From: Chloroflexales bacterium ZM16-3
Lineage (GTDB): Bacteria; Chloroflexota; Chloroflexia; Chloroflexales; Chloroflexaceae
NCBI GenBank assembly: GCA_004138175.2
Contig: RYFE02000029.1
Coordinates: forward strand, 1-64,000
Reading direction: 5' to 3'
Length of the DNA stretch: 64,000 nt
The position numbers and the translations under genes were made by a program. The notes beneath the pieces were generated by a model. That model was not told the origin of the DNA and made no database searches. It saw only the letters and a program-made list of their open reading frames with translations. This document shows positions 16,415-57,767 of this stretch, in pieces (the stretch's first letter is position 1; the number at the start of each line of letters is the position of its first letter).

Positions 16415-17124
16415 CACCGCCCCTGCCGCCGCCCCTGATGATCGCTGCGCTCCCGGCTGCGGAGATCGGCGCGCCTGACCGACGCCGCGACGCGGGCGTT
16501 GCGGTGATCAGCTTCCGGCGCGCCTGGCTGGCCCAGCGCCTGCTGGCGAGCGGCGTTTCCGTCCGGCATGTTGTCCCGCAACTGGGGCATCCGCTCCTGC
16601 CCGACATCCGCCCCCCGCTCCTGCTTGACTCGGTGTCCATGCCGCCCCGCATGCTGACGGCGATCCTCTGGGAGCTGCGCACGGTGCGCCACATCCCGAC
16701 CCTGGCGCTCATCTCTGGTGACGCGCCGGGGGTCGGGCGTCTGTTGGCGCTGGCCCCGGCGGTGCATGTCGTGATTGCGGATACCGTGCCGCCCGAGACG
16801 CTCGCCCTCTGGCTGCGGATGGCACCCGCGCTGGCTGCTCGCCGCCTAGTCACAGCATCGCCCGCGTGGGTCGGCGTGGTCGCGCCCGCCGTGCCGCTCC
16901 CCGCCGCCACGCTCGCTGCGCTCTACGCGCTCGCGCCCTACGGTTCGGAGCCGTCGGCCAGCCTCGCCGACGCCGCGCAGCGGATCGGGGTCAGTCGGCG
17001 ACAGCTCTGCTACCACCTGGCGGCGCTGCGGGCCGCGCTGGGCGTCCCGCCCCAGCGCCGCTATCGCCCGCACGCCTTGGCTGCGGCGATCTGCCAGGCG
17101 ATCGTGGCCCCGCCGCACGGCTGA
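16411..17124 (+). CDS. HTH regulator with receiver-like N-terminal domain
   Basis: 237 residues, start overlapping the protease stop (ATGA). The N-terminal ~150 residues have alternating strands and helices (GVAVISFRRAWLAQRLLASG, HIPTLALISGDAPGVGRLLA, HVVIADTVPPETLALWL), like a degenerate receiver or Rossmann-type domain without the acidic phosphorylation site. The C-terminus SLADAAQRIGVSRRQLCYHL is a clear helix-turn-helix, followed by RRYRPHALAAAICQAIV. It is probably a transcription regulator for this locus. The 23-bp repeat array begins at its stop codon and could hold its binding sites. Confidence 0.65.
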   Translation: MTPPLPPPLMIAALPAAEIGAPDRRRDAGVAVISFRRAWLAQRLLASGVSVRHVVPQLGHPLLPDIRPPLLLDSVSMPPRMLTAILWELRTVRHIPTLALISGDAPGVGRLLALAPAVHVVIADTVPPETLALWLRMAPALAARRLVTASPAWVGVVAPAVPLPAATLAALYALAPYGSEPSASLADAAQRIGVSRRQLCYHLAALRAALGVPPQRRYRPHALAAAICQAIVAPPHG

Positions 17125-17250
17125 GACGCGCCGCCCTGCGCGGCTGAGACGCGCCGCCCTGCACGGCTGAGACGCGCCGCCCCGCACGGCTGAGACGCGC
17201 CGCCCTGCACGGCTGAGACGCGCCGCCCCGCACGGCTGAGACGCGCCACC
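17121..17250. repeat. six tandem copies of a 23-bp repeat
   Basis: Copies start at 17121, 17144, 17167, 17190, 17213 and 17236, with core ctgagacgcgccgcc and variable tails ctgc or ccgc then acgg or gcgg. The last is cut short by the terminator. The first copy contains the TGA stop of the HTH regulator. The arrangement suggests an array of protein-binding sites (operator, iteron or centromere) or a simple variable-number repeat. Confidence 0.85.
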
Positions 17251-17286
17251 CGTGGTGGTACCAATTGGTACCACCACGGGTTTTTT
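17248..17286 (+). terminator. Rho-independent terminator on a perfect palindrome with shared 18-bp core
   Basis: 17249-17280 is a perfect 32-bp palindrome with arms starting cccgtggtggtaccaa, extended by an A-T pair and followed by TTTTTT at 17281-17286. This is a textbook intrinsic terminator after the protease-regulator operon. Its centre TGGTACCAATTGGTACCA (17256-17273) recurs exactly at 56410-56427 before the ParB genes, so it may double as a protein-binding site. Confidence 0.88.
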
Positions 17287-38820: not shown

Positions 38821-39234
38821 ATGTACGTGCAACGTGAACCCCTTGGCGGCGTGGGCGAGAACCGGATCTGGTCGATCCTGACCATTGAGAACGCCGCAGG
38901 TGCCGCCGCTGGCGGCGGGGCCATGTACGGCCTCGCGCAGACCCTGCGGCTCTCCGCCGACGGCTTTGGGGCTGGTTTCTGGCTCCAGCTCATGCTCATC
39001 GCGCTTGGCGCGATTATCGGCGCGGCGGTGACGATCCGCGTGCGCGGACTCTCGCTGGTAGACCGGATCATCCTGTTCGTCAGCTTCCAGATCCGCAAGG
39101 CCAGCGGCCAGCACCGCGTGGTGCCCCCGCTGGAGTCGTCCATCTGGGCGCTCGGCGACGCGAGCGACGATCTGCTGCCGCTGATCGACGACGACATGCT
39201 GGCGGCGCTCAACGAGGGCTTATCACATGGCTGA
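38821..39234 (+). CDS. VirB3/PrgI-like inner-membrane transfer protein
   Basis: 137 residues from ATG 38821. The N-terminus MYVQREPLGGVGENRIWSIL precedes two membrane helices (NAAGAAAGGGAMYGLAQ region and FWLQLMLIALGAIIGAAVTI). A cytoplasmic tail with RIILFVSFQIRKASGQHRV follows. Small two-helix proteins immediately before VirB4 are VirB3 or PrgI-like and help anchor the ATPase to the pore. The stop overlaps the VirB4 start by 8 nt, supporting a stoichiometric partnership. Confidence 0.72.
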   Translation: MYVQREPLGGVGENRIWSILTIENAAGAAAGGGAMYGLAQTLRLSADGFGAGFWLQLMLIALGAIIGAAVTIRVRGLSLVDRIILFVSFQIRKASGQHRVVPPLESSIWALGDASDDLLPLIDDDMLAALNEGLSHG

Positions 39235-41671
39235 CCGTGAGCCGATAACGCTGCGGGTGCAGGGCTTCCCCCAGGAGATGGTCGGCAACCCGGCCACCAT
39301 CGAGGAGGGCTGGCTGCCGTTCTTCGTGAGCGCCGACTACCCGCTCCGCATGATCGCCGCGACCACGCGGTTCGACCTGCGCCGCCCGCTCGACCTGGCC
39401 CGCGATCAGCTCCGCATCGTGGACATCCAGCGGCGCACCGTGGAGCGGCTGCGCGGCATCGTCAGCCAGGGGAACGGCCATGTGCCCGCCGATGCGCTGG
39501 CCGCCTACCTCGACACGCTGGGCGACGCCGCGCAGGGCTGGATCGACGCCGCCCTGGCCGACGGCGACGTGCATGCGCGGGCGACCTGGGAGCAGGCGCT
39601 GACGGTGCTCGACCGGGCGGGCTGGCGACGGCGCTGGCTGCTGGCCTACGAGCGCTACTTCGAGCGCATGAACACCCACCTGGCGCTGCGCGGCCTGCGG
39701 CATACCCTGATCGCCTGGCACGACGAGGGCATGCGCCCCGGCGACTTCGCGCAGCAGGTGGGCCGGGCCTTCACCACCTCCGCCACGGTGGACATGCTGC
39801 CGAACCTGCTCCCGGTCAGCTACGTGGAGCGCTACGCCTGGCGCGAGGGCGGCTGCTACCTGGAGCCGGAGGAGCCGGATCACCCGCTCTGCGCCATGCT
39901 CACCCTCGCCAGCCCGCTGCGCGGCCAGTGGGATACGACCGTGCTCCACCGGCTGCTCAACGTCGGCTGCGACGTGGCGGTCTGCATCGACGTGCAGCCG
40001 GTGAGCCGTACCACGATGGAGTACCAGGCCGACCAGACCATCACGAACCGCACCTGGCAGTTCCGGCGCGGCACCGGCCCGCGCGACGCCCGCGCCGAGC
40101 GCGAGTATGCCGCCGCCCACCGGGCGCAGGAGGATCTCAGCACCGAGGCCGCCCACGACCTCCGCCTGGTGGTGGCCGTGTTTGGCGACGACCTCGACAC
40201 CTTGAACCAGAACGTGCGCCTGATCACCAGCGCCGCCGGCACCCGCGTGCCGCTGATGCGCATCCCTGGCCAGCAGGCCGAGCTCGCCCGCTACTTCACG
40301 ACCGATCCGACCAAGCGGATCGAGGCGCGCACGCGGGTGCATCGGATGCTCTCGCACGGCGTCGCGGTGACGACCATGTTCGGCCTCCGCAAGCCCGACC
40401 GCACCGACGGCATCCTGTGGCTGTTCCAGGGCGACACGCCGATCTTCTTCAACCCCATCAAGGACAAGCGGGCGGGCCACGCCGTGGTGCTCGGCAAGAC
40501 CGGCTCGGGCAAGACCTTCGCCCTGAACGCCTGGATGATGCGCTGGCTGGCCCAGGGGCACCAGGTGGTGCTCTATGAGCCGCAGGGCCACTCGGAGCGC
40601 TTCATCCGGGCCTGCGGCGCGGGCGGGGCGCGGTTCGTGCTCAACCTCGACCAGCAGCTCAACATTCTCGATGTCGTCGCCACCCGTGGCGAGCGCAACG
40701 AGCCGCCGAGCCTGGGCGTGCAGGTGGCGCACGTCGCCACCCAGCTCTCGGTGCTGCTGGGCGGCTCGACGATGACCGCCAGCGGCGCGGAGCAGTTCTA
40801 CCCCCGCGTGTGGGAGAGCATCGAGCGCGGCATCCTCGAAATTGCGCTCCAGCAGCTCTACGCGCCCTGGCCTGACCTCGACGCCCTGAGCGTCGAGCGC
40901 ACGCCCATCCTCGCCGACCTCTGCGCGGCGCTGCGCGAGGTTGGCCGACAGCTCCGCGAGCGCGAGCGGGAAGAGCTGGCTGGTGTCAACGGTGACATCG
41001 GCGGAGATCGCCGCCGCAAGCATCGCTCCGATAGCGCCTTTGATCTGGCCGGCGAGATCGAGCTGCGGCTGATCATGGGGCCATACGGCAAGAACTTCAA
41101 CGCGCGCACCAGCGTGGACTGGGACTTCTCGCACGACGCGACGGCCTACGACTTCAGCCAGATTCCCGAGGGCGCGGTGCGGATCTTCTACTACGCGCAG
41201 GCGTTCGGGGCGCTGAACCGGGCGGTGCGGGCGCCGAGCCGCGACCGCGCCCGGCCGCTCTGGGCGGTGATCGACGAGTTCAAGTACATGGCCAGCGTCC
41301 CGAGCCTCGCCACCTTCGCCGCGAGCGCGGTGAAGACCTGGCGCACCTTCGGGGCGGCGCTCTGGACGGCGGATCAGGACGCCCACACCTACCTGGGCAC
41401 CGAGGGGAGCGTCCCCGACCCGGCGATGCTGAGCGTGTGGCTGAACTCAACGATGAAGATGATCCTGCGCCAGGATCAGGCCGACGCGGCGCGCATCGCG
41501 GAGAAGATTCAGGGCATGCAGCCGGCCCACGCGGATCTGATCACCCGCCTGACCCGTGGGGACATCGTGCTGGTGTGGGAGAGCGACGACGACCTGATGA
41601 CCTACAACGAGGTCTTTGTGGGCCGGGTCGGCGTGGATGACCAGGAGCTACGGGCCTTCCGTGGGAGCTAG
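39227..41671 (+). CDS. virB4: VirB4/TrbE-family type IV secretion ATPase
   Basis: 814 residues, a typical VirB4 length. The N-terminal half (~1-400) is the VirB4-specific domain (LRVQGFPQEMVGNPATIEEG, TIARYFERMNTHLALR-type helices). The C-terminal RecA-like motor has Walker A LGKTGSGKTFALNAWM near residue 422, Walker B RPLWAVIDEFKYM near 680, ALWTADQDAHTYLG and LRQDQADAARIAEKIQGM. VirB4 powers pilus biogenesis and substrate transfer from the cytoplasmic face of the pore. It is the strongest single marker that this window encodes a mating-pair formation system. Confidence 0.95.
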   Translation: MADREPITLRVQGFPQEMVGNPATIEEGWLPFFVSADYPLRMIAATTRFDLRRPLDLARDQLRIVDIQRRTVERLRGIVSQGNGHVPADALAAYLDTLGDAAQGWIDAALADGDVHARATWEQALTVLDRAGWRRRWLLAYERYFERMNTHLALRGLRHTLIAWHDEGMRPGDFAQQVGRAFTTSATVDMLPNLLPVSYVERYAWREGGCYLEPEEPDHPLCAMLTLASPLRGQWDTTVLHRLLNVGCDVAVCIDVQPVSRTTMEYQADQTITNRTWQFRRGTGPRDARAEREYAAAHRAQEDLSTEAAHDLRLVVAVFGDDLDTLNQNVRLITSAAGTRVPLMRIPGQQAELARYFTTDPTKRIEARTRVHRMLSHGVAVTTMFGLRKPDRTDGILWLFQGDTPIFFNPIKDKRAGHAVVLGKTGSGKTFALNAWMMRWLAQGHQVVLYEPQGHSERFIRACGAGGARFVLNLDQQLNILDVVATRGERNEPPSLGVQVAHVATQLSVLLGGSTMTASGAEQFYPRVWESIERGILEIALQQLYAPWPDLDALSVERTPILADLCAALREVGRQLREREREELAGVNGDIGGDRRRKHRSDSAFDLAGEIELRLIMGPYGKNFNARTSVDWDFSHDATAYDFSQIPEGAVRIFYYAQAFGALNRAVRAPSRDRARPLWAVIDEFKYMASVPSLATFAASAVKTWRTFGAALWTADQDAHTYLGTEGSVPDPAMLSVWLNSTMKMILRQDQADAARIAEKIQGMQPAHADLITRLTRGDIVLVWESDDDLMTYNEVFVGRVGVDDQELRAFRGS

Positions 41672-41682
41672 GAGCGTCTGAG

Positions 41683-44600
41683 ATGCTATATCGCGTTCGG
41701 GGGTCACTTCATCCTGATACGACGCACATCGCCACCGAGCTGCGCGGCCTGATCGCGCACACCGGGCCGATCCGGCTGGGCTACCTCCAGATGCACGGCG
41801 TCGCCGCGCAGACGATCCAGGTGCGCGACGATGCCGCCGCCTTCTTCGAGGAGACGCTGCTGCCGAAGATCGGGGCCGCCGGCTCCTTTGTCGAGCAGCG
41901 CGCGGCCCTGCGGCAGCCCAAGGAGCTGCGGCTGGCGGCCACGCTCTGCCCGACGACGGCCACCGCGCTGCCCGACCTGCGCCGCTGGGCCGGCGTCTGG
42001 GGCGAGGTGGTCTACGCGCCGGGCCGCACGACGGTGCGGGTGCGCTGTCTGCCGGAGGACGCCGAGCGGCTGCGCGAGCTGGAGGGCCAGGGCTGGCGGG
42101 TGCGGCGCGGCCCCCTGGCGCGCCTCCCCTGGCTGGCGAGGGCCGCCCCCTTCGCCCCGCAGTTCTGGCCCGCACCGGCGGCCCCGGCCCCGGCCCCGGC
42201 CCGAGCGACACCGGCGCTGGCCGCAGCCGCCGCAGCGCCATCCCCGTCAACGCTGACCGCAGCGGAGGTGCTGGCTGCGGCTGACGCCGCGAACCTGCTG
42301 CTCGGCGTGACGCCCACGGGCGAGGGCGTGCGGCTGGCCTGGCGCGCGATGATCGTCGCGGTGCAGGATGGCGGGGAGCGGCAGGAGTCGGTCGTTGGTG
42401 CGTCGCTGCTCCGGGCGCTCGCGCAGGGCATGGGGGCGCTGGTGATCGCGGAGCGGGCAAAGGTGACGCCGCGGCTGCTCGCCCCGCTGGCGGATCGGCT
42501 GCGCATCATCGACATGGCCGACCCCTGGGAGAGCGCCCGCATCCCGTGGCGCAGCCTGCCGCCCGAGGCGCTCACGCTGCTGCTCGGCGGCGCGCCCCCG
42601 TCGCCGCTCCCTGAGACGCTGGCCGACGCCCTGCGCGCGGCGGGCCGACCTGGCGCGGCGACGCCGGTGCTGGAGGCGCTGACCCGCGAGCCGGCCTATG
42701 ATCTCGCCGGGACGCTGGAGGCCGGCGGCGGGGTGGTGCTGCTGCTGGAGCCGGGGGCGTCGGCCTCGCTCCTCGCCTCGCTGCTCATCCTTGGCCTGAG
42801 CCTCGCCCCGCTGACCCGCCCGCTGCTGATCTGCCGGCCTGCCGCGCTGCCCGTGCCGCCGAGTTTGGCGAGTCAGGCGGTGCAGTTCGTGTTTGGCGAC
42901 GCCCCAACGGCGGCCCTCCAGCTTCAGGCGACGCCGGGCGCGTGGACGGCGATCGTTCCTGACGGGACGCAGATCGTCCTTCAGGAAGACCTCACGGCCT
43001 TGGTGGTGGAGCGGGCGGGGGCCGATCACGCGGCCCTGGTGGGCGGGCTGCAAGGGCTTGGGTGGGCTGCTGGCACGTCGCCGCGTGCTGGCGCGGCGGA
43101 AGGCGCTGACATAGACCTGAGCTGGCCGGACGGGCTAGAAGCGGTCGCCGAAGCGGACTTGACGCTTCCTGAAGCGTCAGCGCAGCCCGAGGGGACGCAA
43201 GCGCCGCTGGCAGCGACTGATGAGGGTTTGACGCTTCAGGGAGCGTCAGCGCTGCCCGACGATGCTGGTATCGCGGGCCTGGGCTGGCCGGAAGGGATAG
43301 AAGAGACTGACGAAGCGGGTTTGACGCTTCAGGAAGCGTCAGCGCTGCCCAACGATGCTGGTATCGCGGGCCTGGGCTGGCCGGAAGCGCCAGAGGAAGC
43401 GGAGGCCGATGCGGGTTTGACGCTTCAGGGAGCTTCTGAGCAGCCCGAGGGGCCAGAAGCGCCGCTGGTGGCGGCTGATGCGGGTTTGACGCTTCAGGGA
43501 GCGTCAGCGCAGCCCGAGGGGGCGGAAGCGCCGCTGGCAGCGGCTGATGAGGGTTTAACGCTTCAGGGAGCGTCAGACCTGCCCGACGAAACGAATGATG
43601 TCGCCCCCTTCGATATTGACGAATGGCCTGCACTATTGTTTGACGATGCGTTGCTAAGCGACACCTTTGATCATGCTCCGCATGCACGGCGACCGAAGCC
43701 TCATCGTCGCAATAGGCTGGTTCTTCATGCTTCGCGTGCTCACCGCAGTAGTGCCGAAGCGGGTTTGACGCTTCAGGGAGCGTCAGACCAGCCCGAGGGG
43801 GCGGAAGCGCCGCTGGTGGCGGCTGATGAGGGTTTGACGCTTCAGGGAGCGTCAGACCTGCCCGAGGGGGCGGAGGCCGAAGCGGGTTTGACGCTTCAGG
43901 GAGCGTCAGACCAGCCCGAGGGGGCGGAAGCGCCGCTGGTGGCGGCTGATGAGGGTTTGACGCTTCAGGGAGCGTCAGACCAGCCCGAGGGGGCGGAGGC
44001 CGAAGCGGGCCTGGGCTGGCCGGAAGCGCCCGAGGGGGCGGAGGCCGAAGCGGGTTTGACGCTTCAGGGAGCGTCAGACCAGCCCGAGGGGGCGGAAGCG
44101 CCGCTGGTGGCGGCTGCTGATGAGGGTTTGACGCCTCAGGGAGCGTCAGACCAGCCCGAGGGGGCGAGTGTCGCGGGCCTGGGCTGGCCGGAAGCGCCAG
44201 AGGGAGAGGTCGCCGAAGCGGGTCTGACGCTTCAGGGAGCGTCAGACCAGCCCGAGGGGGCGGAAGCGCCGCTGGTGGCGGCTGATGAGGGTTTGACGCT
44301 TCAGGGAGCGTCAGACCAGCTCGACGAGGATGTGACGGATCTTGTTGCTGCGTGGCATCGTGGCGAGGGCATGCGCGACCTGGCCCGCGAACTGCGCCGC
44401 CGTCGCCCGGCCCTATCGCTCCTCGACGCGATGCGTACCCTGAAGGCTGCCATCAATGCGCCTTCCCCTCCGCCTGCATCACCACCGCCCCCGGCGGCGC
44501 ATGGCGGCTTGGAGGCAGTGCTACGTGGCCTGGCCGCAGAGACGCCGACGCTCCCAGAGGAGCGAGACACGCTGCAATCGTGGCGCAGCGGGGGGCAGCG

Positions 44601-44898
44601 GCGGGATGTCGTGCGCGAGGTGGCCGCTACCTACGGGATGCGCGAGGCGGAGGCGCGCGCGATCTACGACCGGCTCGTGTTGCCTCGGGTCATCAGCGAC
44701 ATGAACGGCAGCGCCGCCGAGGTGCTCCGTATCCTCCGCGAGCCACATGGGGGTGATCGGGCAACGATCCCGCCGCCAGTTATGGACTGCATCTCGCGCC
44801 TGCTCGGCACGCCGAAGACGAATGCCGGCATTGCGCGCTCGCTGCTTCCGTCCCTCCGCGAGACGCTGGCCGACCTCGACACCACGGGGAGGCCATAA
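41683..44898 (+). CDS. repeat-rich protein of the transfer operon, unknown
   Basis: 1071 residues. Residues ~1-160 are an alpha/beta domain (MLYRVRGSLHPDTTHIATEL, VRVRCLPEDAERLRELEGQG), and a Pro/Ala linker leads to a second alpha/beta domain (~190-460; MIVAVQDGGERQESVVGASL, VLLLEPGASASLLASLLILG) that looks like a P-loop fold lacking a Walker A. Residues ~492-885 consist of about fourteen units with the core GLTLQGASDQPEGAEAPLVA, each carrying the DNA palindrome described separately. The C-terminal ~180 residues are helical (DLARELRRRRPALSLLDAMR, GGQRRDVVREVAATYGMREA), resembling a DNA-binding or helicase-associated domain. It sits between the two transfer ATPases, with tail-to-head overlap to the next gene. 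No family recognised. Confidence 0.75.
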   Translation: MLYRVRGSLHPDTTHIATELRGLIAHTGPIRLGYLQMHGVAAQTIQVRDDAAAFFEETLLPKIGAAGSFVEQRAALRQPKELRLAATLCPTTATALPDLRRWAGVWGEVVYAPGRTTVRVRCLPEDAERLRELEGQGWRVRRGPLARLPWLARAAPFAPQFWPAPAAPAPAPARATPALAAAAAAPSPSTLTAAEVLAAADAANLLLGVTPTGEGVRLAWRAMIVAVQDGGERQESVVGASLLRALAQGMGALVIAERAKVTPRLLAPLADRLRIIDMADPWESARIPWRSLPPEALTLLLGGAPPSPLPETLADALRAAGRPGAATPVLEALTREPAYDLAGTLEAGGGVVLLLEPGASASLLASLLILGLSLAPLTRPLLICRPAALPVPPSLASQAVQFVFGDAPTAALQLQATPGAWTAIVPDGTQIVLQEDLTALVVERAGADHAALVGGLQGLGWAAGTSPRAGAAEGADIDLSWPDGLEAVAEADLTLPEASAQPEGTQAPLAATDEGLTLQGASALPDDAGIAGLGWPEGIEETDEAGLTLQEASALPNDAGIAGLGWPEAPEEAEADAGLTLQGASEQPEGPEAPLVAADAGLTLQGASAQPEGAEAPLAAADEGLTLQGASDLPDETNDVAPFDIDEWPALLFDDALLSDTFDHAPHARRPKPHRRNRLVLHASRAHRSSAEAGLTLQGASDQPEGAEAPLVAADEGLTLQGASDLPEGAEAEAGLTLQGASDQPEGAEAPLVAADEGLTLQGASDQPEGAEAEAGLGWPEAPEGAEAEAGLTLQGASDQPEGAEAPLVAAADEGLTPQGASDQPEGASVAGLGWPEAPEGEVAEAGLTLQGASDQPEGAEAPLVAADEGLTLQGASDQLDEDVTDLVAAWHRGEGMRDLARELRRRRPALSLLDAMRTLKAAINAPSPPPASPPPPAAHGGLEAVLRGLAAETPTLPEERDTLQSWRSGGQRRDVVREVAATYGMREAEARAIYDRLVLPRVISDMNGSAAEVLRILREPHGGDRATIPPPVMDCISRLLGTPKTNAGIARSLLPSLRETLADLDTTGRP
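43159..44313 (+). repeat. in-frame palindromic repeat array (TGACGCTTC / GAAGCGTCA family)
   Basis: Fourteen copies of a 20-23-bp palindrome inside one gene, near 43159, 43226, 43319, 43416, 43486, 43554, 43764, 43831, 43886, 43956, 44057, 44128, 44221 and 44291. The best copy (43160-43179) has perfect 9-bp arms TGACGCTTC and GAAGCGTCA around CT. Most others have TTTGACGCTTCAGGGAGCGT. All are read in the same frame as LTL-x-x-AS-x-x-P, often within a 69-bp tandem unit. Related copies lie outside this gene at 48438, 48514, 49129 and 49569. Confidence 0.85.
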
Positions 44899-46340
44899 TG
44901 CCAACCGCGAGCCGGGCCGCAGCTGCGCCCAAGCCCACATCGCAGGCGTCCCGCTATGGGCGGCAGCAGGCCGCCGCCGCGCAGGCCCGCGTGGCCGCCG
45001 TGGCCGGCATCGTGGCGGCGTATGTCGTGCCGCTGCTGCCCTCGCCCATCGGCCCCTTCCCGAACCCGCTGGCCGCCGTCCCCGGCTTCGCCCCCGAGCT
45101 CGGCCCCTGGGACTGGCGCGGCTATCTGTGGGGCACCCTCGCCCCGTCGCTGCTTCAGCCCATCATCCCCGCCGGGCTGCTCGGCTTCCCGCACCCCGCC
45201 CTCACGCCGTTCCTGGCCATCCAGCTCGGCGGGGCCATCTTCGGCCTGCTCGTCATCCTGGGCCTCATCCAGCACCTGATCAGCCTCTACGCGCAGCGCA
45301 CCACGCCCCTGGCGGCCACGCACACCTACGTGCGGCTGCGCATCCCTGGGAGCGCCCGCCTGACCCCGCTGGAGGGCGTCACGCTCTTTCGCACGCTCCA
45401 CGGGATGCTGCCGCCGGCCAACCTGGCGCAGGGCTCCCCCGTCCCGCTCACGCTGCGCTGGACGGCGCGGCCTGAGATGCCGGTCACGCAGGGCGTGACT
45501 ATCTGCGGCCAGCCCACCTTGCTGACCAGCATCAGCAAGACCCTCGAAGGGCTGACCCGAGGGGCGGCGGCGGAGGTCGCTGACGACCCCTTCGTCGCGG
45601 AGCTGAGGGAGGGCCGGTGGCTGTGCTGGGCCGATGTGCGCCAGGTGGCCCCGCGCTTTCTGCCGATCGCGGTGGCGGGGCGAAGCGACGACCCGCTGCT
45701 CGACGCGCTGCTCCCGGCGATGTCGCCCCAGGCCGGGGTGGACATGGCCGATGTCCAGATCATGCTCTCGCCGCTCAGCGACCGCACCTGGCGGCTGCCG
45801 GTGCTGGCGCAGCAGGAGGCGTTAAAGCTCGATATTGCGACGCCGGAGCGGCAGGCGCTCGACGCGAAGGCCGCCGGGCCGGCGTTTCGCGTGGGGGTGC
45901 GCCTGCGGGTGATCGCGGAGAGCCGCGACGCGGGGGTCGCAATGGTGCAGACCATCGCGGCCACGCTGAGCAGCAGCGCCCAGCCGGTCGCCGGCAGCGT
46001 GCAGCGGCTCTCCGCCGGCGGGGCGCAGGCGCTTCCGGCAACCCTTCCGCCGGCCCCCGCGCTCCCCCCGCTGGCCCTTCGGGTCGTGTTCGGGGCTGGC
46101 GCGGTGCTTGCCCTCGCCGTGGCCGTCGGCTGCTGGCTCTGGGCCGCCGCTGGCCCGCTGACGTGGGCGCTGCCCATTCTGGCGCTGCCCATCCCGGCGC
46201 TGGCCGTCGGCTGCTGGCACCGACGCCAGATCAAGGCCGACATGCGCCTCGTGCATGCGAGCGTGGTCGGCGCGATCTTGCCCCCGGCCAACCCGAAGCT
46301 CGTGCCGCTGATCGGCCCCTGGCTCGGCCGCAGCGAGTAG
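44898..46340 (+). CDS. polytopic membrane protein, probable partner of the coupling ATPase
   Basis: 480 residues, start sharing one base with the previous stop (TAATG). N-terminal basic/Gln-rich stretch, then membrane segments RVAAVAGIVAAYVVPLLPSP and LAIQLGGAIFGLLVILGLIQ. A large soluble region (~140-370) follows, with LTPLEGVTLFRTLHGMLPPA and FRVGVRLRVIAESRDAGVAM. Two further helices lie at ~395-440 (FGAGAVLALAVAVGCWLWAA). The layout, with a soluble domain resembling the all-alpha or substrate region next to a P-loop gene, suggests this is the membrane half of a split TraG/VirD4-type coupling system, the ATPase being the next gene. That is inference from order and topology. Confidence 0.65.
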   Translation: MPTASRAAAAPKPTSQASRYGRQQAAAAQARVAAVAGIVAAYVVPLLPSPIGPFPNPLAAVPGFAPELGPWDWRGYLWGTLAPSLLQPIIPAGLLGFPHPALTPFLAIQLGGAIFGLLVILGLIQHLISLYAQRTTPLAATHTYVRLRIPGSARLTPLEGVTLFRTLHGMLPPANLAQGSPVPLTLRWTARPEMPVTQGVTICGQPTLLTSISKTLEGLTRGAAAEVADDPFVAELREGRWLCWADVRQVAPRFLPIAVAGRSDDPLLDALLPAMSPQAGVDMADVQIMLSPLSDRTWRLPVLAQQEALKLDIATPERQALDAKAAGPAFRVGVRLRVIAESRDAGVAMVQTIAATLSSSAQPVAGSVQRLSAGGAQALPATLPPAPALPPLALRVVFGAGAVLALAVAVGCWLWAAAGPLTWALPILALPIPALAVGCWHRRQIKADMRLVHASVVGAILPPANPKLVPLIGPWLGRSE

Positions 46341-46368
46341 CCAATCGCTCATGTCACAGGAGACACCA

Positions 46369-48414
46369 ATGGTCATGCATTTAAGCGCCGCCGAACTCTC
46401 AACCCTCTGGCACCTGCCAACCGAGGGCCAGGGGGATCGCGTGGAGCGCGTCGCCGCCCGCTGGATGCCCGCGCCCGCAAACGCCTTTATCGACGCGGCC
46501 GACCCGCGCCAGATTGCGATGGGCATGGCCCGCCGGAGCGATGGGAGCTGGGCGCCGGTGGGCTTCTCCTACGACCGGCTGCGCTTCATCCAGTGGATCA
46601 CCGCGCCGATGGGCCGCGGCAAGTCCGAACTGCTCAGGAACATCCTCCAGGGGCTGCTGAACGCCGACGCGGGCTTTATGGCCCTCGACTGTAAGGCCAA
46701 AGACCTCGTGAACACGACGCTGCCGCTCATCCCGATGAGCCGCGAGAAGGATGTCGTGCTGGTCGATCTGGAGGGCTCCACGGACACCGGCGAGGATCTG
46801 CGGGTGTCCATGAACCTGCTCAGCCCCTCGCTGGGCCGCTCGCTGGGCGTGGAGCCGTCGATGATGGCCTCGATCATTCTGGGCATCTTCGCCACGCTCG
46901 ACCCCAACTTCTCCAGCGCGGTCGGCATCCAGCAGTTCGCCAACATGGGCATGCTGGCCCTGCTCGGCGGCGAGCCGATGCCGACCCTGATGCACCTGAT
47001 CCGCTTCTTCGGCGACGAGGACTACCGGGGCCAGGTGTGCGGCAGGCTCCCCGGCGCGTACCTGCAGGTCGCGGACTTCTGGGAGCGCCGGTTCGGCGAG
47101 ATGCCCGAGACGCAGAAAAGCTCGCTCGCCAGCTTCGAGCGGCGGCTGGATCGCATGCTCTCGTTCCCCGAGCTCCAGGCCATGCTCGTCGCCCCCGGCT
47201 GTAGCGTGGATCTCCGCAAGCTCATGGACAGCAAGGGCATCCTGCTGATGGGCATCTCGGCCAGCCAGGGCGACATCGCCACGGTGGCGATCACGCTGCT
47301 GCTGACCCAGCTCCGATTAGCCGCGCTCTCGCGCACGAACGTGCCGGAGGCGCGGCGCCCCGACTGGCCGATGATCATCGACGAGGTGCAGATTGTCGCC
47401 AACAGCAACGCCGACCTGTTCAAGGTGATGCTGTCGCAGTTTCGCTCGATGCGGATCGGCCAGATCCTCGTGCATCAGGGGCTGAGCCAGATCGACGGCG
47501 AGGTGATGGGGCCGCTCTCGGATAACGCCGCGCATCGCGTGATCTTCGGCTGCGAGGCCAACGACGCGGGCACCTACGCGGGCATCTACGGCGGCCAGGG
47601 GCTGACCCGCGAGGACTTCGTGGGCATGGAGGTTCACCCGAAGTACGGCTACGCGATGCACGCCTACCTGCGCTTCCAGGGCGGCCCGCTCTTCAGCACC
47701 AAGCCCCTGCCGATGGCGCAGGCGCTCACCGAGGCGGCCCCGCCCCCGGTCTACGTGGACTGGCGCACCGTGCGCGCCCCGGCCCGCAGCGCGCAGGACA
47801 GGCAGCTCGACGAGCAGATCGCGCGCTTTGGCGAGCTGTCGCGGGTGAGCTGGGATGCGGCGGTGGAGCGGCTTGGCGTCGCGGCGCTCAGGCGGCCAGA
47901 GCTATTTGACCTCTACTGCGCCCGCACCAAGGCCCACCGGCAGGCCCAGCGCCAGTTCATCCTCGACAACCCCGGCTGCATCAGGATGGACACGGACATC
48001 CGCGATGACGAGGCGCGGCGCGTCGATCAGAAGAGCCGGCGCATTCGGGTGCTCTCCGGGCTCGGGAGCGGCGTGCCGCGCCTGGAGACGACGGCCCTGT
48101 CCTGGTCGCTGCTGATGGCGGGCCGCGAGGCCAGCGCGGTGCGCAAGCAGCGGGCCGAGGAGGAGCAGGCGGCGAAGGCTGCCGCCAAGAGGGGCGGCGG
48201 TGGTAAGAAGCCCGATGCTGCCCCGTCTACGCCACGCCCGGCCCGCGCTCAGGCTGCTGCGGTCACAGGTGACACGAGCGGGGGCGCCGCGGATTCTCCG
48301 GCGAGCGGCAGCGCGGCCCCGGCAACGCGCTACCCGACCCTTGACGAGCTGGCCGCAGAGCGCGGGTGGAAGCGCGACGCCGGGGATACGGTCGGCGGGA
48401 TGGACGAGTGGTGA
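46369..48414 (+). CDS. virD4: VirD4/TraG-like type IV coupling ATPase
   Basis: 681 residues. AGGAG at 46358-46362 is 6 nt from ATG 46369 and decides the start; the ATG at 46351 has no such site. The P-loop domain begins near residue 65 (DRLRFIQWITAPMGRGKSEL, Walker A GRGKS), then ALDCKAKDLVNTTLPLIP, Walker B WPMIIDEVQIV near 335, and the sensor-type ILVHQGLSQIDGEVMGPLSD. There is no N-terminal membrane anchor, unlike classical VirD4; the preceding gene probably supplies it. The C-terminal ~60 residues are a Pro/Ala linker containing VTGD, ending LDELAAERGWKRDAGDTVGG. It would recruit the DNA-relaxase complex to the VirB4 pore. Confidence 0.85.
   Translation: MVMHLSAAELSTLWHLPTEGQGDRVERVAARWMPAPANAFIDAADPRQIAMGMARRSDGSWAPVGFSYDRLRFIQWITAPMGRGKSELLRNILQGLLNADAGFMALDCKAKDLVNTTLPLIPMSREKDVVLVDLEGSTDTGEDLRVSMNLLSPSLGRSLGVEPSMMASIILGIFATLDPNFSSAVGIQQFANMGMLALLGGEPMPTLMHLIRFFGDEDYRGQVCGRLPGAYLQVADFWERRFGEMPETQKSSLASFERRLDRMLSFPELQAMLVAPGCSVDLRKLMDSKGILLMGISASQGDIATVAITLLLTQLRLAALSRTNVPEARRPDWPMIIDEVQIVANSNADLFKVMLSQFRSMRIGQILVHQGLSQIDGEVMGPLSDNAAHRVIFGCEANDAGTYAGIYGGQGLTREDFVGMEVHPKYGYAMHAYLRFQGGPLFSTKPLPMAQALTEAAPPPVYVDWRTVRAPARSAQDRQLDEQIARFGELSRVSWDAAVERLGVAALRRPELFDLYCARTKAHRQAQRQFILDNPGCIRMDTDIRDDEARRVDQKSRRIRVLSGLGSGVPRLETTALSWSLLMAGREASAVRKQRAEEEQAAKAAAKRGGGGKKPDAAPSTPRPARAQAAAVTGDTSGGAADSPASGSAAPATRYPTLDELAAERGWKRDAGDTVGGMDEW
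48262..48273 (+). promoter_or_regulatory. GTCACAGGTGAC motif, copy in coupling-ATPase gene
   Basis: Exact 12-mer in the disordered tail-coding part, read as VTGD. Same frame and codons as the copies at 13395 and 62605. Confidence 0.45.
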
Positions 48415-48437
48415 GCAAAGAAGAGTGCTCAAACAAG

Positions 48438-48537
48438 GGTTTGACGCTCTCTGAAGCTTCAAACCTGCCATGTGACCTGTCCAGGTAGGTGTGTTCAGGT
48501 GTAGACGATGCGGTTTGACGCTCTCTGAAGCGTCAAA
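48438..48537 (+). repeat. two intergenic copies of the TGACGCT/AGCGTCA palindrome
   Basis: Copy one at 48438-48465 (ggtttgacgct, 7-nt centre, agcttcaaacc; one arm mutated) and copy two at 48514-48537 (perfect 9-bp arms TTTGACGCT and AGCGTCAAA). Both lie between the coupling-ATPase stop and the next start and so are noncoding here. This shows the palindrome is dispersed rather than only a protein repeat. They may act as hairpins in the leader of the downstream gene. Confidence 0.75.
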
Positions 48538-48559
48538 GCCCTGTTCTCTAGGACGAGCG

Positions 48560-49579
48560 ATGACCTCACCGTTAGCGAGACGACTCAGCGCACCGAGGCC
48601 CAACGACCACCAGGCGCGGCAGCGCGAGCTGCTGCGGCTCCTGGCCCGGCTGGAGTTCGTGCCAGCGCGGCACCTGCACGCCCTTGTCGCCCCCGCGCTG
48701 CACACCGTCACCTTCTGGCGCTGGCTCCAGACCACGCACGCCCAGCGGCTCATCTGGCGGCACCCGGTAGCCCCTGGCCGGCTGCCCGGCGGCATCGCCG
48801 CATCCAACGGTGCGCCGCCGCCGCGCACGCCGATGCTCTACGGCCTGACCGCCCACGGGCGGGCCTGGCTGGAGCGCGAGGGCGTCGAGGACGACCTGGC
48901 GGTGCTGGAGCGGGCCATCGTGCGCGACTGGCGGAGGCCTGAGCTGAAGACCGGCCAGCTCGCCCACGATCTCCTCGTGGTGGAGTGGTGTGCGCGGGCG
49001 CTGATCGGCCTCCGCCGCTCCCCCATGCTCCAAAGCGTCGAGGTGGTCATGGAGTATGTCAGCGCGACAAGCGAGAGCGGCCAGCCGCTCCAGCGCTTCG
49101 ACGCCCTGGTGCTCGTGCAGGTGGCCCCAACGCTTCCGAAAGCGTCAAACCCCGGCCCGATCCCCTGGACCTGGGCGCAGCCGGGCGCACCCGGCGTGCT
49201 GGCCTGGGCGGTCGAGATCGACCGGGGCACCGAGCCGCTGGTGACGCTGCTCGGCAAATCTGTGATGTACCGCGATCTCACGGTCAGCGGCCACTACGAG
49301 GCCACCCTGGGCACCAAGCCGCTGCCGGTGGTGGTGACGCCCACCGCACGGCGGGCCGCGCAGATCGCCCGCGAGTGGCTGGACGGCTGGCCGGGCGGGC
49401 GCGGCATCGCGGCCCCGATTGACCGGCTGGCCGACCGGCACGGCGGCATCCTCTGGGGCCGCTACAAGACGATGGGGTTCAACCCGGCCCGCGACGCGAC
49501 GCTCTGGGAGGATCTGGGCCTCACGCGGAAGCAGTGGGATTCGCAGCAGGAGTGCAAGCAGGGCTCTGACGCTTCCTGA
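48560..49579 (+). CDS. replication-relaxation family-like protein (winged helix plus catalytic-like domain)
   Basis: 339 residues from ATG 48560 (an upstream in-frame start would place the palindrome in the protein). The N-terminal winged helix (QRELLRLLARLEFVPARHLH to YGLTAHGRAWLEREG) is followed by an alpha/beta domain with AHDLLVVEWCARALIGL and VLAWAVEIDRGTEPLVTLLG plus a later K and Y, the pattern of the Replic_Relax family found on plasmids and conjugative elements. The family is linked to replication or relaxation by association only. The palindromic element occurs in frame at ~49129 (TLPKASNPG), and the stop codon TGA at 49577-49579 is formed by the centre of another copy. A paralogue follows directly. 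Confidence 0.72.
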   Translation: MTSPLARRLSAPRPNDHQARQRELLRLLARLEFVPARHLHALVAPALHTVTFWRWLQTTHAQRLIWRHPVAPGRLPGGIAASNGAPPPRTPMLYGLTAHGRAWLEREGVEDDLAVLERAIVRDWRRPELKTGQLAHDLLVVEWCARALIGLRRSPMLQSVEVVMEYVSATSESGQPLQRFDALVLVQVAPTLPKASNPGPIPWTWAQPGAPGVLAWAVEIDRGTEPLVTLLGKSVMYRDLTVSGHYEATLGTKPLPVVVTPTARRAAQIAREWLDGWPGGRGIAAPIDRLADRHGGILWGRYKTMGFNPARDATLWEDLGLTRKQWDSQQECKQGSDAS

Positions 49580-49584
49580 AGCGT
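49569..49584 (+). repeat. palindromic element overlapping a stop codon
   Basis: acgcttcctgaagcgt has perfect 7-bp arms around ct. The TGA in its right half is the stop codon of the upstream gene, so insertion of this element may have created the present C-terminus. Confidence 0.7.
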
Positions 49585-49625
49585 TGGAGCAGGGTTCTAG
49601 GAAACAGGAAGGAGCGAGGTGCGCA

Positions 49626-50639
49626 ATGAGCTTAACGGTACGCCTCAGCAATAAAGCCGCAGTGTTACCGATGTCGGAGCGAGAGCTGGCCGTGCTGCGG
49701 CTCCTGGGCCGGCTGGGGATGGTGTTGGGGCAAACAATCCGCGATGTCATTTGCTTCGATCAGCACGAAAGCACATGCCGCAATATGCTCCACGAATTGG
49801 CGGGGCGAAAGCTGATCTGGCAGGCTAGTGCGCCGCAAGCGGACGACGTGGGCCGTTCGGCGGGGCGGGCGCCGAACGTCTACGGCCTCACCGACGATGG
49901 GCGGCAGGTACTCGACACCTTCGGTGCGGAGCCACATGACGGCACCTTCGAGCGGCTGATCTATCGCTCCAAGCAGGCACCCTCGGCACCGGCCGTGGCC
50001 GCTTTGGTCAGCGAGACATACCTGAGCGACTGGTGCGCCTCCCTGCTCGATCAGATTCGCCGCACGCCGATGCTGGCCGGCGTGCATGTGCAGCGACGCT
50101 ACGCGGTGACGGGCACTGACGGGGCGCTGCTTCAGACCATTGGGGCGGTGATCATCCTGGCGTTTGACCCAGAACTGAGAACATTCGAGCGCCCGATGTG
50201 GGTAATTCCCTGGCTCACCGATGGGGTGATCTCATCCTCCTGGCGGATTGTGCGGCTGGCCCTAGAAGTAGATACCGGCATGATGGCGATGCGCTCGCTC
50301 TTGGAGTTGGCACAGACCTACCAGCGGCTATCGGGCGACAGGACGTACCAGCGGCTTCTCGGCGGCCCACCGCGCCCGGTGATCATCACGCCACCCGCCC
50401 GACGAGCACGATCGGTTGCGGAGGTGTGGATGAGTGCATGGGAAGGCTCACCAGCCCTACTCACGACCGTGGAGCGTACCGTTCACCCTGACTATGGAGT
50501 GCTCTGGGGGAACTATGTAGCACTGAAAGCTAACCCGGTGCAGCCTGCGCTGCTTCTCGGCAACCTGCTCGGAACGGTTGATCAGTGGCCGTCGAAAATC
50601 TCGACTTGGCCCGGCTTGGCCTCTGGCGCAAAACCGTAA
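49626..50639 (+). CDS. second replication-relaxation-like protein
   Basis: 337 residues from ATG 49626, with AAGGAGCGAGG upstream. Same plan as its neighbour: winged helix (SERELAVLRLLGRLGMVLGQ to VYGLTDDGRQVLDTFG), then ETYLSDWCASLLDQIRRTPM, RIVRLALEVDTGMMAMRSLL and HPDYGVLWGNYVALKANP, matching DRHGGILWGRYKTMGFNPA in the first protein. The sequences differ enough to indicate an old duplication. Acidic residues in LEVDTG correspond to EIDRG in the paralogue. Probably acts with it on the element's DNA; a relaxase-like activity is possible but not shown. Confidence 0.68.
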   Translation: MSLTVRLSNKAAVLPMSERELAVLRLLGRLGMVLGQTIRDVICFDQHESTCRNMLHELAGRKLIWQASAPQADDVGRSAGRAPNVYGLTDDGRQVLDTFGAEPHDGTFERLIYRSKQAPSAPAVAALVSETYLSDWCASLLDQIRRTPMLAGVHVQRRYAVTGTDGALLQTIGAVIILAFDPELRTFERPMWVIPWLTDGVISSSWRIVRLALEVDTGMMAMRSLLELAQTYQRLSGDRTYQRLLGGPPRPVIITPPARRARSVAEVWMSAWEGSPALLTTVERTVHPDYGVLWGNYVALKANPVQPALLLGNLLGTVDQWPSKISTWPGLASGAKP

Positions 50640-50750
50640 CCCGAGAAGGGCACGAACTATATGAGCGAGCCGAAGAGCAAACAGAATAGAAGGCGAATAA
50701 AGGCGCGCAAAATTGGGCGAGGAACGGGCGGATATGCCGACGGGTAAACG

Positions 50751-50797
50751 GGCGAGAAAGAGGCGAGAAAGAGGCGAGAAAGAGGCGAGAAAGAGGC
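50751..50797 (+). repeat. four 11-bp direct repeats
   Basis: ggcgagaaaga repeated at 50751, 50762, 50773 and 50784, with a partial fifth. The period is close to one helical turn and the + strand is purine-rich, as in protein-binding iterons. Confidence 0.85.
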
Positions 50798-50847
50798 AAT
50801 ACGGCGTTCAGGTTTGGCCCGTTGGGGGCTGGGTGTTCCGGGCGACA

Positions 50848-50876
50848 TTCTTTCACGCCTCTCCAGCGTGAAAGAA
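50848..50876. other. perfect 11-bp inverted repeat
   Basis: ttctttcacgc (50848-50858) and gcgtgaaagaa (50866-50876), loop ctctcca. Strong single hairpin lying in the noncoding region, of the kind recognised by relaxases or acting as a terminator for the paralogue pair upstream. Confidence 0.65.
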
Positions 50877-51023
50877 GCGGTACTCACCCCGAATGTGCGT
50901 GCCGGGAACTCCCCCCGCCAGCGCCCCCCTGGCCGCCCTCGCCCGCCTGCCCTGCCGGCTCCCCGCTGGCTGGCGTGGCCCCCCAGGCTGCTGGCACTGC
51001 TCTGGGGACGCGGGTGCCCGGAA

Positions 51024-51061
51024 TCAATGAATCCTCAGTGATCAGCATCGCGATTCATTGA
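51024..51061. other. 10-bp inverted repeat with 18-nt loop
   Basis: tcaatgaatc (51024-51033) and gattcattga (51052-51061) are exactly complementary. It is one of the few AT-rich spots in the region, immediately before the G-rich tract. Confidence 0.6.
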
Positions 51062-51334
51062 AGGGCAGGGACGGCGGGCGGGCGGCGACCGGAGCTGGTG
51101 GCGAGACGAGGCGGGGGCCGGCACAGGGCAGGGCATGCGGGGACGCAGGGGCAGAGCAGCGAGGGCAGGGCAGGCGGGGGAGGGCAGGGCGTTGCGCGAC
51201 AAGGAAGCAGGGAAAGACGAGGCGGGCATGGTGAACACGGCAAAGCAGGGCGTTTGGGCACGCAGCACCACCGTGGGGGTGAGGCGCGGCGGCCAGGCCA
51301 TCGCCCGTCAGGGCGGGGGCCACGTAGGCGGGCG

Positions 51335-56409: not shown

Positions 56410-56427
56410 TGGTACCAATTGGTACCA
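56410..56427. promoter_or_regulatory. 18-bp palindrome TGGTACCAATTGGTACCA ahead of the ParB genes
   Basis: Perfect palindrome, identical to the centre of the terminator palindrome at 17256-17273. It lies 158 bp before the first ParB start with no gene over it. It could be a parS-like centromere or a ParB/regulator operator specific to this element. Confidence 0.6.
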
Positions 56428-56567: not shown

Positions 56568-57767
56568 ATGGCCCCACGTTCCAAGACCGTTGCACAGGTG
56601 ATCGAGATCGGGCGGGAGCTGATTGAAGTCGATGCCGGGCAGGTTCGCCAGGAGAAGACCGAGGGGCTTTCGGAGCTGGCGGCGAGCGTGAAAGGGGGGA
56701 ACGCGTTCCCCCCTCTCGTCGTCACCGACCTGGGCAAGGGGCGCTATCGGCTGCTGGACGGGGAGCGCCGCTGGCTGGCGGCGGGCATCGCCGGGATAGA
56801 GCGGGTGCCGTGCATCGTGCAGGCTCCGAAGGGCTACCTGGACACCCGCGTGGAGCAGATGCAGCGCAACAACGCCCTACCGATGACCCCGCTGGAGTGG
56901 GCGCAGGGCAGCTACCACGCCTACCTCGCCGCGAACATCGCGGCGCTGGCGAGCGAGCAAGGGGTGGCCGACCCGACCGAGGGGCTGGTCGAGGCCGGGC
57001 TGAAGCCCACCGAGCAGCGCGAGCGGCTGGAGGGCTGGCTGGCGGAGCTGGCCGGGATGCCGGTGACGGACTACCTCACCACCCCCAAGGTGCGCGTGCC
57101 TCGCAGAGCGGTGTTTGAGCGCCTGGGCAAGCCGACGAACGAGAGTGCGATCAAGAAGCTCTGGGTGCCGCTGAAGCTGCCTGCGGCGCTTCAGGACAAG
57201 CTGGAGGGCACCGGCGTCTCGACGCGCACGATGGGCGACCTTGCGGGCCTGCCAGAGGATGCGCAGGGCGATGCGGTGGATGCGGCCCTGGCCGCCGCTG
57301 GTGCCGAGGGCGATGTGGGCGCGGCGCTCCGCAAGGAGATCACATCACGGAAGGGCGAGGCCGAGACCGAGGGCAATGGGACAGTGGTGGACTGGCCGGA
57401 GCCGGACGCGCCGACGGGCGATGGCGACATGGGCATGGCCGCCCTGGCCGCCGGGGAGCGCGGCGACGGCTTTGTGCCCGACCCGGCGCTGGCGCTGCCG
57501 TTTGGGGGCGGCCCTGGCGGGAAGGGGGCCATGCACGTCGATGGCCCCGCGCCGGGCACGGGCAGCACGCCCCCGGCGGGCCTCGGCACGAGCTGGCCGC
57601 ACGAGACGGTGTTGCAGTTCGAGGCGGGCCTGGAGGCGCTGCTGGGCTGCCTCGACACCGTTGGCCCGGCGACGTTGAGCGCGGCGCAGCAGCGGCTGCT
57701 CGGCAGCCAGTGGCGCGAGCTGCGGGAGCGGGGCGCAAAGGCCGGGCTGCCGGGTGAGGGGGCATAG
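56568..57767 (+). CDS. parB: ParB-like partition/nuclease-domain protein (first copy)
   Basis: 399 residues from ATG 56568 (AGGA upstream; an in-frame ATG 45 nt earlier has its AGGA too close). The ParB N-terminal domain spans residues ~30-110: VDAGQVRQEKTEGLSELAAS, YRLLDGERRWLAAGIAGIER with the CTP-binding-type GERRWLAA, and QMQRNNALPMTPLEWAQG. The middle HTH-like part includes AVFERLGKPTNESAIKKLWV. The C-terminal ~130 residues are a Gly/Pro linker and a helical end. ParB proteins bind parS and spread; here a second, different ParB follows 2 nt downstream, which is unusual. Confidence 0.85.
   Translation: MAPRSKTVAQVIEIGRELIEVDAGQVRQEKTEGLSELAASVKGGNAFPPLVVTDLGKGRYRLLDGERRWLAAGIAGIERVPCIVQAPKGYLDTRVEQMQRNNALPMTPLEWAQGSYHAYLAANIAALASEQGVADPTEGLVEAGLKPTEQRERLEGWLAELAGMPVTDYLTTPKVRVPRRAVFERLGKPTNESAIKKLWVPLKLPAALQDKLEGTGVSTRTMGDLAGLPEDAQGDAVDAALAAAGAEGDVGAALRKEITSRKGEAETEGNGTVVDWPEPDAPTGDGDMGMAALAAGERGDGFVPDPALALPFGGGPGGKGAMHVDGPAPGTGSTPPAGLGTSWPHETVLQFEAGLEALLGCLDTVGPATLSAAQQRLLGSQWRELRERGAKAGLPGEGA

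Follow-up and report, generated by a model that had tools for sequence, protein, structure and literature searches.

A short, coding-tolerant palindrome family that may have spread locally within a mobile element of an Oscillochloris genome

How does a short palindrome come to lie many times in one reading frame of a gene, and also between genes, inside a second gene and across a stop codon? This question is raised by a stretch of DNA from Chloroflexales bacterium ZM16-3, bases 1-64000 (hereafter the window) of contig C50 (70,659 bases) in a genome, G000, of 6.27 Mb and 127 contigs. The host genus is Oscillochloris, of the Chloroflexales, and the sequence around the palindromes resembles a conjugative element's transfer region. 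The explanation favored here, with a probability of about 0.52, is that a short, coding-tolerant palindrome resembling the repetitive extragenic palindromes (REPs) and the Rickettsia palindromic elements (RPEs) spread locally within this one mobile element.

The pattern TGACGCT-N6-AGCGTCA, with two mismatches at most, has 18 matches in the window, compared with a mean of 0.31 and a maximum of 3 in 100 shuffles, and the whole family is confined to 6.4 kb (43.1-49.6 kb) of the one contig. An earlier note on this DNA had described about 14 copies in a single frame of one transfer gene, two copies between genes, one in frame in a different gene and one that supplies a stop codon. The computed positions agree with its coordinates to within 4 bases. 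Exactly 14 copies lie in one frame of the gene at 41683-44898, here called the LTL gene, at 43160, 43229, 43322, 43418, 43487, 43556, 43766, 43835, 43889, 43958, 44057, 44129, 44225 and 44294. The intergenic copies are at 48442 and 48516, and the last two belong to the first of two Replic_Relax genes (gene 1), one in frame at 49128 and one at 49567, whose TGA is the stop codon of the gene (TCT GAC GCT TCC TGA). The flanks of the copy at 49567 form a direct repeat alike at 10 of 11 bases when read by eye. No direct repeat of the target-site duplication type, as around MITEs, was noticed at 48442 or 48516, these three being the copies examined.

Within the LTL gene the copies have multiplied in tandem. 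The 69-bp expansion proposed earlier holds for six of the 13 intervals between copies, but the others range from 54 to 210 bp. Likewise, the peptide LTL-x-x-AS-x-x-P is encoded by 12 of the 14 copies but not at 44129 (LTP) or 44294 (no P). Since 14 of the 18 copies form one tandem array in one gene, they might be protein repeats of the ordinary kind, with the palindromic DNA as a mere side effect. The same DNA, however, also occurs between genes, in a second gene and across a stop codon, and for the four copies outside the array such an origin is untenable by position alone. Moreover, most coding copies contain the codons GGT, TTG, CTT, GGA and TCA, each of which makes up 3-5% of the codons for its amino acid in the element. 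The codon index is 0.25 for palindrome codons, 0.41 elsewhere in the repeat region and 0.59 in the gene outside it. Rare codons are expected if the sequence was shaped at the DNA level. The linker also contains 12 hairpins, compared with a mean of 2.2 and a maximum of 6 in 100 synonymous shuffles, although the tandem copies are not independent; the whole gene contains 13, compared with a mean of 5.4 and at most 9 in 30 synonymous shuffles. Ordinary protein repeats are thus a very improbable account of the family.

Comparison with the congener G005, whose orthologues of gene 1 and of the second Replic_Relax gene (gene 2) share 81 and 73% identity with those of the window, shows unrelated palindromes at two matching places. 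Upstream of gene 1, G005 possesses a 36-bp palindrome, perfect and unrelated in sequence, whose distance from the ATG nearly equals that of the copy at 48516: 21 bases to the probable start codon in G005 and 22 bases in the window. Inside gene 1, it possesses an unrelated palindrome with 13-bp arms and a centre identical to that of the copy at 49128. These observations suggest that the positions outlast the palindrome sequences in this lineage. They also bear on the precedent invoked earlier, the RPEs, and on the proposal of a dispersed palindrome that tolerates coding positions and expands in tandem. That proposal is supported, as is the occurrence in frame in unrelated genes, but precise insertion relative to homologues is supported only in part. 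At 49128 there is no gain in length: the linker there is 17 residues long in both the window and G005, and 16-18 residues in six more distant homologues, in which no palindrome of comparable strength was seen by eye at the linker. At the junction of genes 1 and 2 (49567), the window is about 53 bp longer than G005, palindrome included, which is compatible with either gain or loss.

A mechanism consistent with the preferred reading of local spread would have the following parts. The palindrome would have reached the two Replic_Relax genes, in their leaders and at their junctions, and would also have settled within two proteins, in permissive stretches that are probably disordered or form loops. 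Tandem duplication would then have raised the copy number in the LTL gene to 14. The family would exemplify a process at work throughout the host genus, in which palindromes stand at persistent places and the sequence at a place is either changed by template switching (arm homogenisation and spacer inversion) or replaced by another palindrome. We infer that this genus-wide process made the family, and likewise the way in which copies move between places; most copies would have no sequence-specific function.

The behavior of palindromes in the host explains much of the pattern in the element. Perfect palindromes with arms of at least 20 bp occur at 9.7 per 100 kb in G000 (349 kb), 6.2 in G004 (80 kb) and 10.0 in G002 (80 kb), in stretches partly picked around earlier pattern matches and thus not random. 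In 80 kb each of G032, G042 and G053, which belong to other genera and were taken at fixed coordinates, there are none. The 75 palindromes of G000 with arms of at least 12 bp fall into 52 families, 41 of which are singletons. For the comparison with G004, 106 palindromes of G000 were considered, 37 of which have colinear flanks in the G004 stretches; 29 of these could be mapped and eight were left out. At the 29 sites G004 carries a palindrome of the same family at 12 (with a 60% threshold, under which a few pairs count as same-family although plainly unrelated, L231_2218 being one), a different palindrome at seven and none with arms of at least 10 bp at ten, three of which (L241_2564, L241_9282 and L242_2046) have 7-8 bp arms of other sequence. 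A palindrome is therefore kept at 19 of the 29 sites, often with altered sequence. In the reverse direction, 21 sites comprise six with the same family, eight with a different palindrome and seven with none with 10-bp arms.

The changes seen between these two host species include paired changes in the arms, spacer inversion and replacement by a different palindrome. Exact spacer inversion with the arms kept, a mark of template switching, is found in three of seven pairs chosen by hand for alignable arms, and in the same seven pairs base pairs were changed on both sides seven times and on one side twice. The pair L115_956 belongs to the eight unmapped sites, its right flank being 1.3 kb off in G004, and another pair is the C51 hairpin discussed below. 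The flanks of congeneric site pairs are mostly 80-95% identical, and spacer inversion, paired changes and replacement can be counted, coding genes included. Such pairs allow maintenance by polymerase template switching to be separated from true copying between places.

The richness in long palindromes may be a property of the genus rather than of the phylum. In the parts consulted of two surveys, the Chloroflexi have the lowest mean frequency of inverted repeats among the compared subgroups (PMC10434271), and palindromes are over-represented in almost all bacterial phyla (PMC4060949). In the open-access literature searched, as far as its text could be consulted, Oscillochloris co-occurs with palindromes in a single paper, on hot-spring viruses. 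Loss of SbcCD, a nuclease that cuts palindromes, was considered as a cause and is not supported, since SbcD (TIGR00619) is encoded in six of six genomes of the genus searched; the search covered SbcD and not SbcC.

Palindromes also lie in frame in chromosomal genes of the host. In a hemW-like gene (Radical_SAM and HemN_C domains; L169, L171, L175 and L190) a variable linker measures 7-41 residues over the 30 loci compared. In frame in this linker, G000 has a palindrome with 13-bp arms and G001 one with 9-bp arms, and G003 and G005 retain only remnants. G004 and G007 possess long unrelated hairpins with imperfect stems, in which perfect arms reach only 5 bp and the folding energies are -64 and -48 kcal/mol. 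Long in-frame chromosomal palindromes thus occur in Oscillochloris and one relative, and those at the same hemW linker are unrelated between species. In addition, a DUF4147/MOFRL gene (L199 and L200) carries in-frame 25-bp arms in both G000 and G004, the two versions differing by two paired changes and by inversion of the spacer; the motif used to locate the linker did so in these two of 25 loci, and the other 23 are uncompared. Coding positions elsewhere in the host are based on open reading frames called with a simple rule on third-position GC content (GC3), and eight of the 13 palindromes in such frames of G000 lie in the first 14% of the frame, perhaps upstream of the true start.

From these observations a more general view can be offered, tentatively. 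Palindromes in Oscillochloris and its elements might be exchangeable parts in lasting sockets, both between genes and in permissive protein linkers, which would keep a hairpin while species diverge. Template switching might rewrite the hairpin in a socket, or an unrelated hairpin from another place might replace it, in frame and between chromosome and element alike, through a hairpin-copying process. The case bears on how small palindromes with no enzyme of their own spread and enter genes, a question raised by REP-like sequences generally.

A search of the whole genome gave 39 matches per strand with two mismatches at most, 18 in the window and 21 elsewhere, while the backward pattern gave 10. 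Among the 21, one is a clear relative (C51:331333-331362). This C51 hairpin (L039 5331-5362; also L047) has, by reading of the sequence and with no family search there, an ABC-ATPase gene on one side and an rRNA operon on the other. It equals the intergenic copy at 48437-48466 at 27 of 30 bases, whereas in 529 kb of further G000 sequence no match exceeds 20. For its G004 orthologue the figure is 24 of 30; this orthologue has one paired and one single-side change. The close match and the orthologue indicate that a similar palindrome is present at an unrelated chromosomal locus. When a longer pattern was searched in 61 genomes with three mismatches at most (backward control 0), nine matches in eight relatives were found outside the own genome, all with three mismatches. 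The one in G004 is the C51 orthologue, and the other eight are pattern matches only. In the related elements (L035-L038) there was no match above 11 of 14 arm bases.

Several observations weigh against local spread by such a host process. The copies cluster around the Replic_Relax genes, a pattern not expected of a neutral process. Uncompensated changes are present in array copies 43418, 43556 and 44129 and in the copies at 48442 and 49128, and the template-switch mark is thin within the element itself, where copies 43160 and 43322, with identical 9-bp arms and an inverted central CT/AG, are the only such pair. The window contig has no palindrome with arms of at least 20 bp. Moreover, ten of the 29 sites, and seven of 21 in reverse, have no palindrome with 10-bp arms in the other species, so that places are not always kept, and the count of paired changes comes from hand-picked pairs that are near-perfect in both species, a choice that favors paired over single changes. 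Finally, no transposase or copying enzyme was found linked to the family. The own genome has five matches to the Y1 transposase (PF01797), four of them over the cut-off, and none is on the window contig.

The clustering leads to the main rival, a serious one, in which the palindromes (TGACGCTTCNNGAAGCGTCA) are putative sites for a dimeric DNA-binding protein of the element, either a Replic_Relax protein or the LTL protein. They would act as operators at the Replic_Relax genes and as a cluster in the LTL gene, and the site would co-evolve with the protein. Copies do flank both Replic_Relax genes, and in the model of gene 1 a winged helix is predicted at the N-terminal end, with weak fold matches (best E 0.013). 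The G005 palindrome of different sequence upstream of gene 1 is also what a co-evolving site might look like. Within the LTL array, the palindromes are 94% alike and the adjoining 10-bp flanks 83-85%. In contrast, the middle of gene 1 and a stop codon are odd places for operators, and three of the 14 array copies are damaged and unrepaired. Homologues of the LTL gene in G049 lack such an array, with one linker hairpin each (shuffle means 2.3 and 2.8). The homologue in G045 has five linker hairpins, a number reached by five of 100 shuffles, and eight in the whole gene, compared with 7.2. This rival is considered possible but less probable than local spread. If it were true, the element would be a case of a site array housed in a transfer gene.

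Further support for binding sites comes from another gene of the element, at 2402-4465, which has an in-gene palindromic array and adjoins a DnaB-like helicase gene. By analogy with lambda O, the known case, this gene looks like one that holds a replication origin inside an initiator gene, and the DnaB-like neighbor is as predicted by such an origin. Its N-terminal part is conserved and contains a predicted winged helix (weak fold matches). The linker repeats occupy the same place in G004, G005:C83, G000:C71 and G027, with sequences that are lineage-specific and partly different, and palindromes with arms of at least 7 bp are present in those of the window, G004, G005:C83 and G027. With spacers of 0-12, the linker of the window contains six hairpins, reached by none of 100 synonymous shuffles. 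The corresponding numbers are four in G027 (1/100), three in G004 (8/100, borderline) and one in G005:C83 (55/100), which is cut by the contig end. In G000:C71 there are two (53/100), neither of which is the CATCC..GGATG repeat with 5-bp arms seen by eye. In a previous shuffle test with spacers of 3-12, G004 and the second G000 copy were at or below the largest shuffle and G027 was below the mean. A G-rich tract lies 3' of the repeats in the four copies whose repeats can be read through, most loosely in G027, while the G005:C83 contig ends in the repeats. The array in the window and its four relatives suggest that in-gene site arrays may exist in such elements. The LTL gene, however, does not share the supporting features, such as an adjacent DnaB-like helicase gene. 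On the G005 contig L038, positions 9640-10650 contain two palindrome arrays (CACCATCATCGGGTGGTG and CAGCATCCGACGATGCTGG), each close to a G-rich tract resembling the one in the initiator-like gene, and no intact initiator gene was seen around them.

The copies might instead act in RNA, as hairpins that serve as signals for the processing, stability or attenuation of transcripts of the transfer operon, with the coding array a by-product. The folding of transcripts proposed in the earlier note gave a divided result. Folding was better than most shuffles at 48437 (z -3.6), 48511 (-2.4), 49567 (-2.2) and the array copy 43766 (-2.9), but not clearly better at 49128 (z -0.9) or 43160 (z -1.2). A run of TTTT comes directly after the related C51 hairpin, a terminator-like arrangement. 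Nothing terminator-like was found within 48200-51200, and a terminator reading of the copies there was rejected. Departures from symmetry are a mixture of G-U and non-pairing changes, and Rfam at gathering scores gave no match in the window. An RNA function of this kind is judged unlikely as the explanation of the family.

The preferred reading of local spread finds its closest parallel in the intragenic REPs. According to the parts consulted of one report, REPs with the GTAG/CGTC tag are palindromes of 20-40 bp; some lie in frame in genes, their clusters can encode tens of residues, their termini can provide stop codons, and two Xanthomonas species have different REPs near the same recB site (PMC3733652). 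The family in the window shares the 20-40 bp stem-loop, the in-frame copies, the coding cluster, the supply of a stop codon and the differing palindromes at the same site. It differs in having, by eye, no unpaired GTAG/CGTC tag, its CGTC being in the paired stem, in its low copy number, with 18 copies in 6.4 kb and one clear relative elsewhere, and in the absence of a RAYT-type gene from the window contig. The family works like an intragenic REP but lacks the unpaired tag, the copy number and the linked RAYT, and it is read here as standing outside the known REP families. The same source, as consulted, describes RPEs as in-frame palindromes in unrelated genes, those of the RPE-1 type being longer than the family studied here (PMC3733652). 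Like them, the palindrome of the window is in frame in two unrelated genes (41683-44898 and 48560-49579), but it is shorter, and no copy could be shown to be a precise insertion.

Other systems share single features, again as described in the parts of the reports consulted. PARCELs are tandem coding repeats with dyad symmetry that are associated with mobile elements in some taxa, and they form one family of a 25-residue amphipathic domain, most of them with the DUF285 model (PMC2996958). The repeats of the window are also tandem, coding and of dyad symmetry, but they are short and of low complexity and have no Pfam match. In yeast strains, template switching is described between the arms of inverted repeats that lie in coding DNA (PMC8604942). 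The arm homogenisation and exact spacer inversion between the host species resemble it, but the host is a bacterium with very many palindromes, and replacement by unrelated palindromes also occurs, an outcome that template switching inside a single palindrome does not produce. Mitochondria of Nematomorpha contain perfect inverted repeats of up to 284 bp in conserved regions of protein-coding genes (PMC6649704). Inverted repeats are kept in coding genes here too, but they are short and, in the hemW case, in a variable linker. Lastly, the lambda ori iterons are an array of short sites inside gene O of a mobile element (PMC3349717). This in-gene array fits the gene at 2402-4465 better than the LTL gene, which has neither a neighboring replication-type helicase gene nor a known initiator-like domain, its C-terminal part not being modelled.

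The features are collected in Table 1. The order in the transfer region is the coupling ATPase, the LTL gene, a membrane-bound-looking protein, the 687-amino-acid protein and the two Replic_Relax genes, after which come ParA- and ParB-like genes. No Pfam family was found for the LTL protein at E 0.01, and a PHROGs search with its two non-repeat ends gave no family. Its N-terminal part of about 460 amino acids has relatives in G049 (seen by tblastn) and G045. In a search of 400 genomes of the phylum (E 1e-10), in which three first-look candidates were scored per genome, G045 was the sole relative besides the window among the matches listed. The 687-amino-acid protein, for which Pfam gives no family, was the query with which related elements were found in G049, G045 and G005. 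Among 20 plasmid records its best match has 28% identity, and viral contigs contained neither a relative of it nor a match to the palindrome pattern. A search of genome contigs with gene 1 gave the G005 contig as sole match, and profile searches of the PDB gave no meaningful match.

Table 1. Genes and palindrome copies of the window; gene functions are predicted.
Feature	Position	Strand	Remarks
Initiator-like gene	2402-4465		repeats about 2950-3420; in-frame palindromic array CATGCTCC-GAC-GAGCATG in linker
DnaB-like helicase gene	4742-6076		adjoins gene 2402-4465
Putative coupling ATPase	39227-41671		transfer region
LTL gene, 1071 aa	41683-44898	+	transfer-region gene with variable linker
In-frame array, 14 copies	43160-44313	+	GLTLQGASDQPE-type repeats; tandem duplication
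Putative transfer ATPase, 687 aa	46351-48414	+	by place and distant matches annotated as ATP/GTP-binding
Intergenic copy (match at 48442)	48437-48466	+	directly past stop of gene 46351-48414
Intergenic copy (match at 48516)	48514-48537	+	22 bases ahead of ATG of gene 48560-49579
Replic_Relax (PF13814) gene 1, 339 aa	48560-49579	+	predicted N-terminal winged helix, weak fold matches
In-frame copy in gene 1	49128-49147	+	residues about 190-196, low-confidence loop of model
Stop-codon copy of gene 1 (match at 49567)	49557-49598	+	flanks AGCAGGGCTCT / AGCAGGGTTCT
Replic_Relax gene 2, 337 aa	49626-50639	+

Other repeats in the element include candidate sites of transfer and partition. The intergenic copies of the palindrome were considered as oriT, but this is less likely because a block of 11-bp direct repeats and a stretch with GACATTCT and a hairpin, directly 3' of gene 2, form a better candidate. 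The candidate (50751-50876) comprises an 11-bp direct repeat (GGCGAGAAAGA) in slightly more than four copies, then GGCGACATTCT and a hairpin with 11-bp arms. At the corresponding place, the 11-bp repeats of L035, L036 and L037 differ in sequence, and G005 keeps GACATTCT and a hairpin. A candidate parS is the palindrome TGGTACCAATTGGTACCA, common to 17248-17281 and 56410-56427, with one copy just before a ParB-like gene; a search for its core TACCAATTGGTA in pieces of the related elements L035-L038, L125 and L126 gave no match. In addition, six 23-bp tandem repeats at 17115-17251 run into a 34-bp perfect palindrome at 17248. Close to the start of the ParB-like gene, or within the region of that gene, lies AGGGGGGAACGCGTTCCCCCCT (window 56693-56714, L037 18199-18222, L038 2257-2284), which is nearly identical in G045 (24 bp) and which in G005 has a changed interior with the flanks kept.

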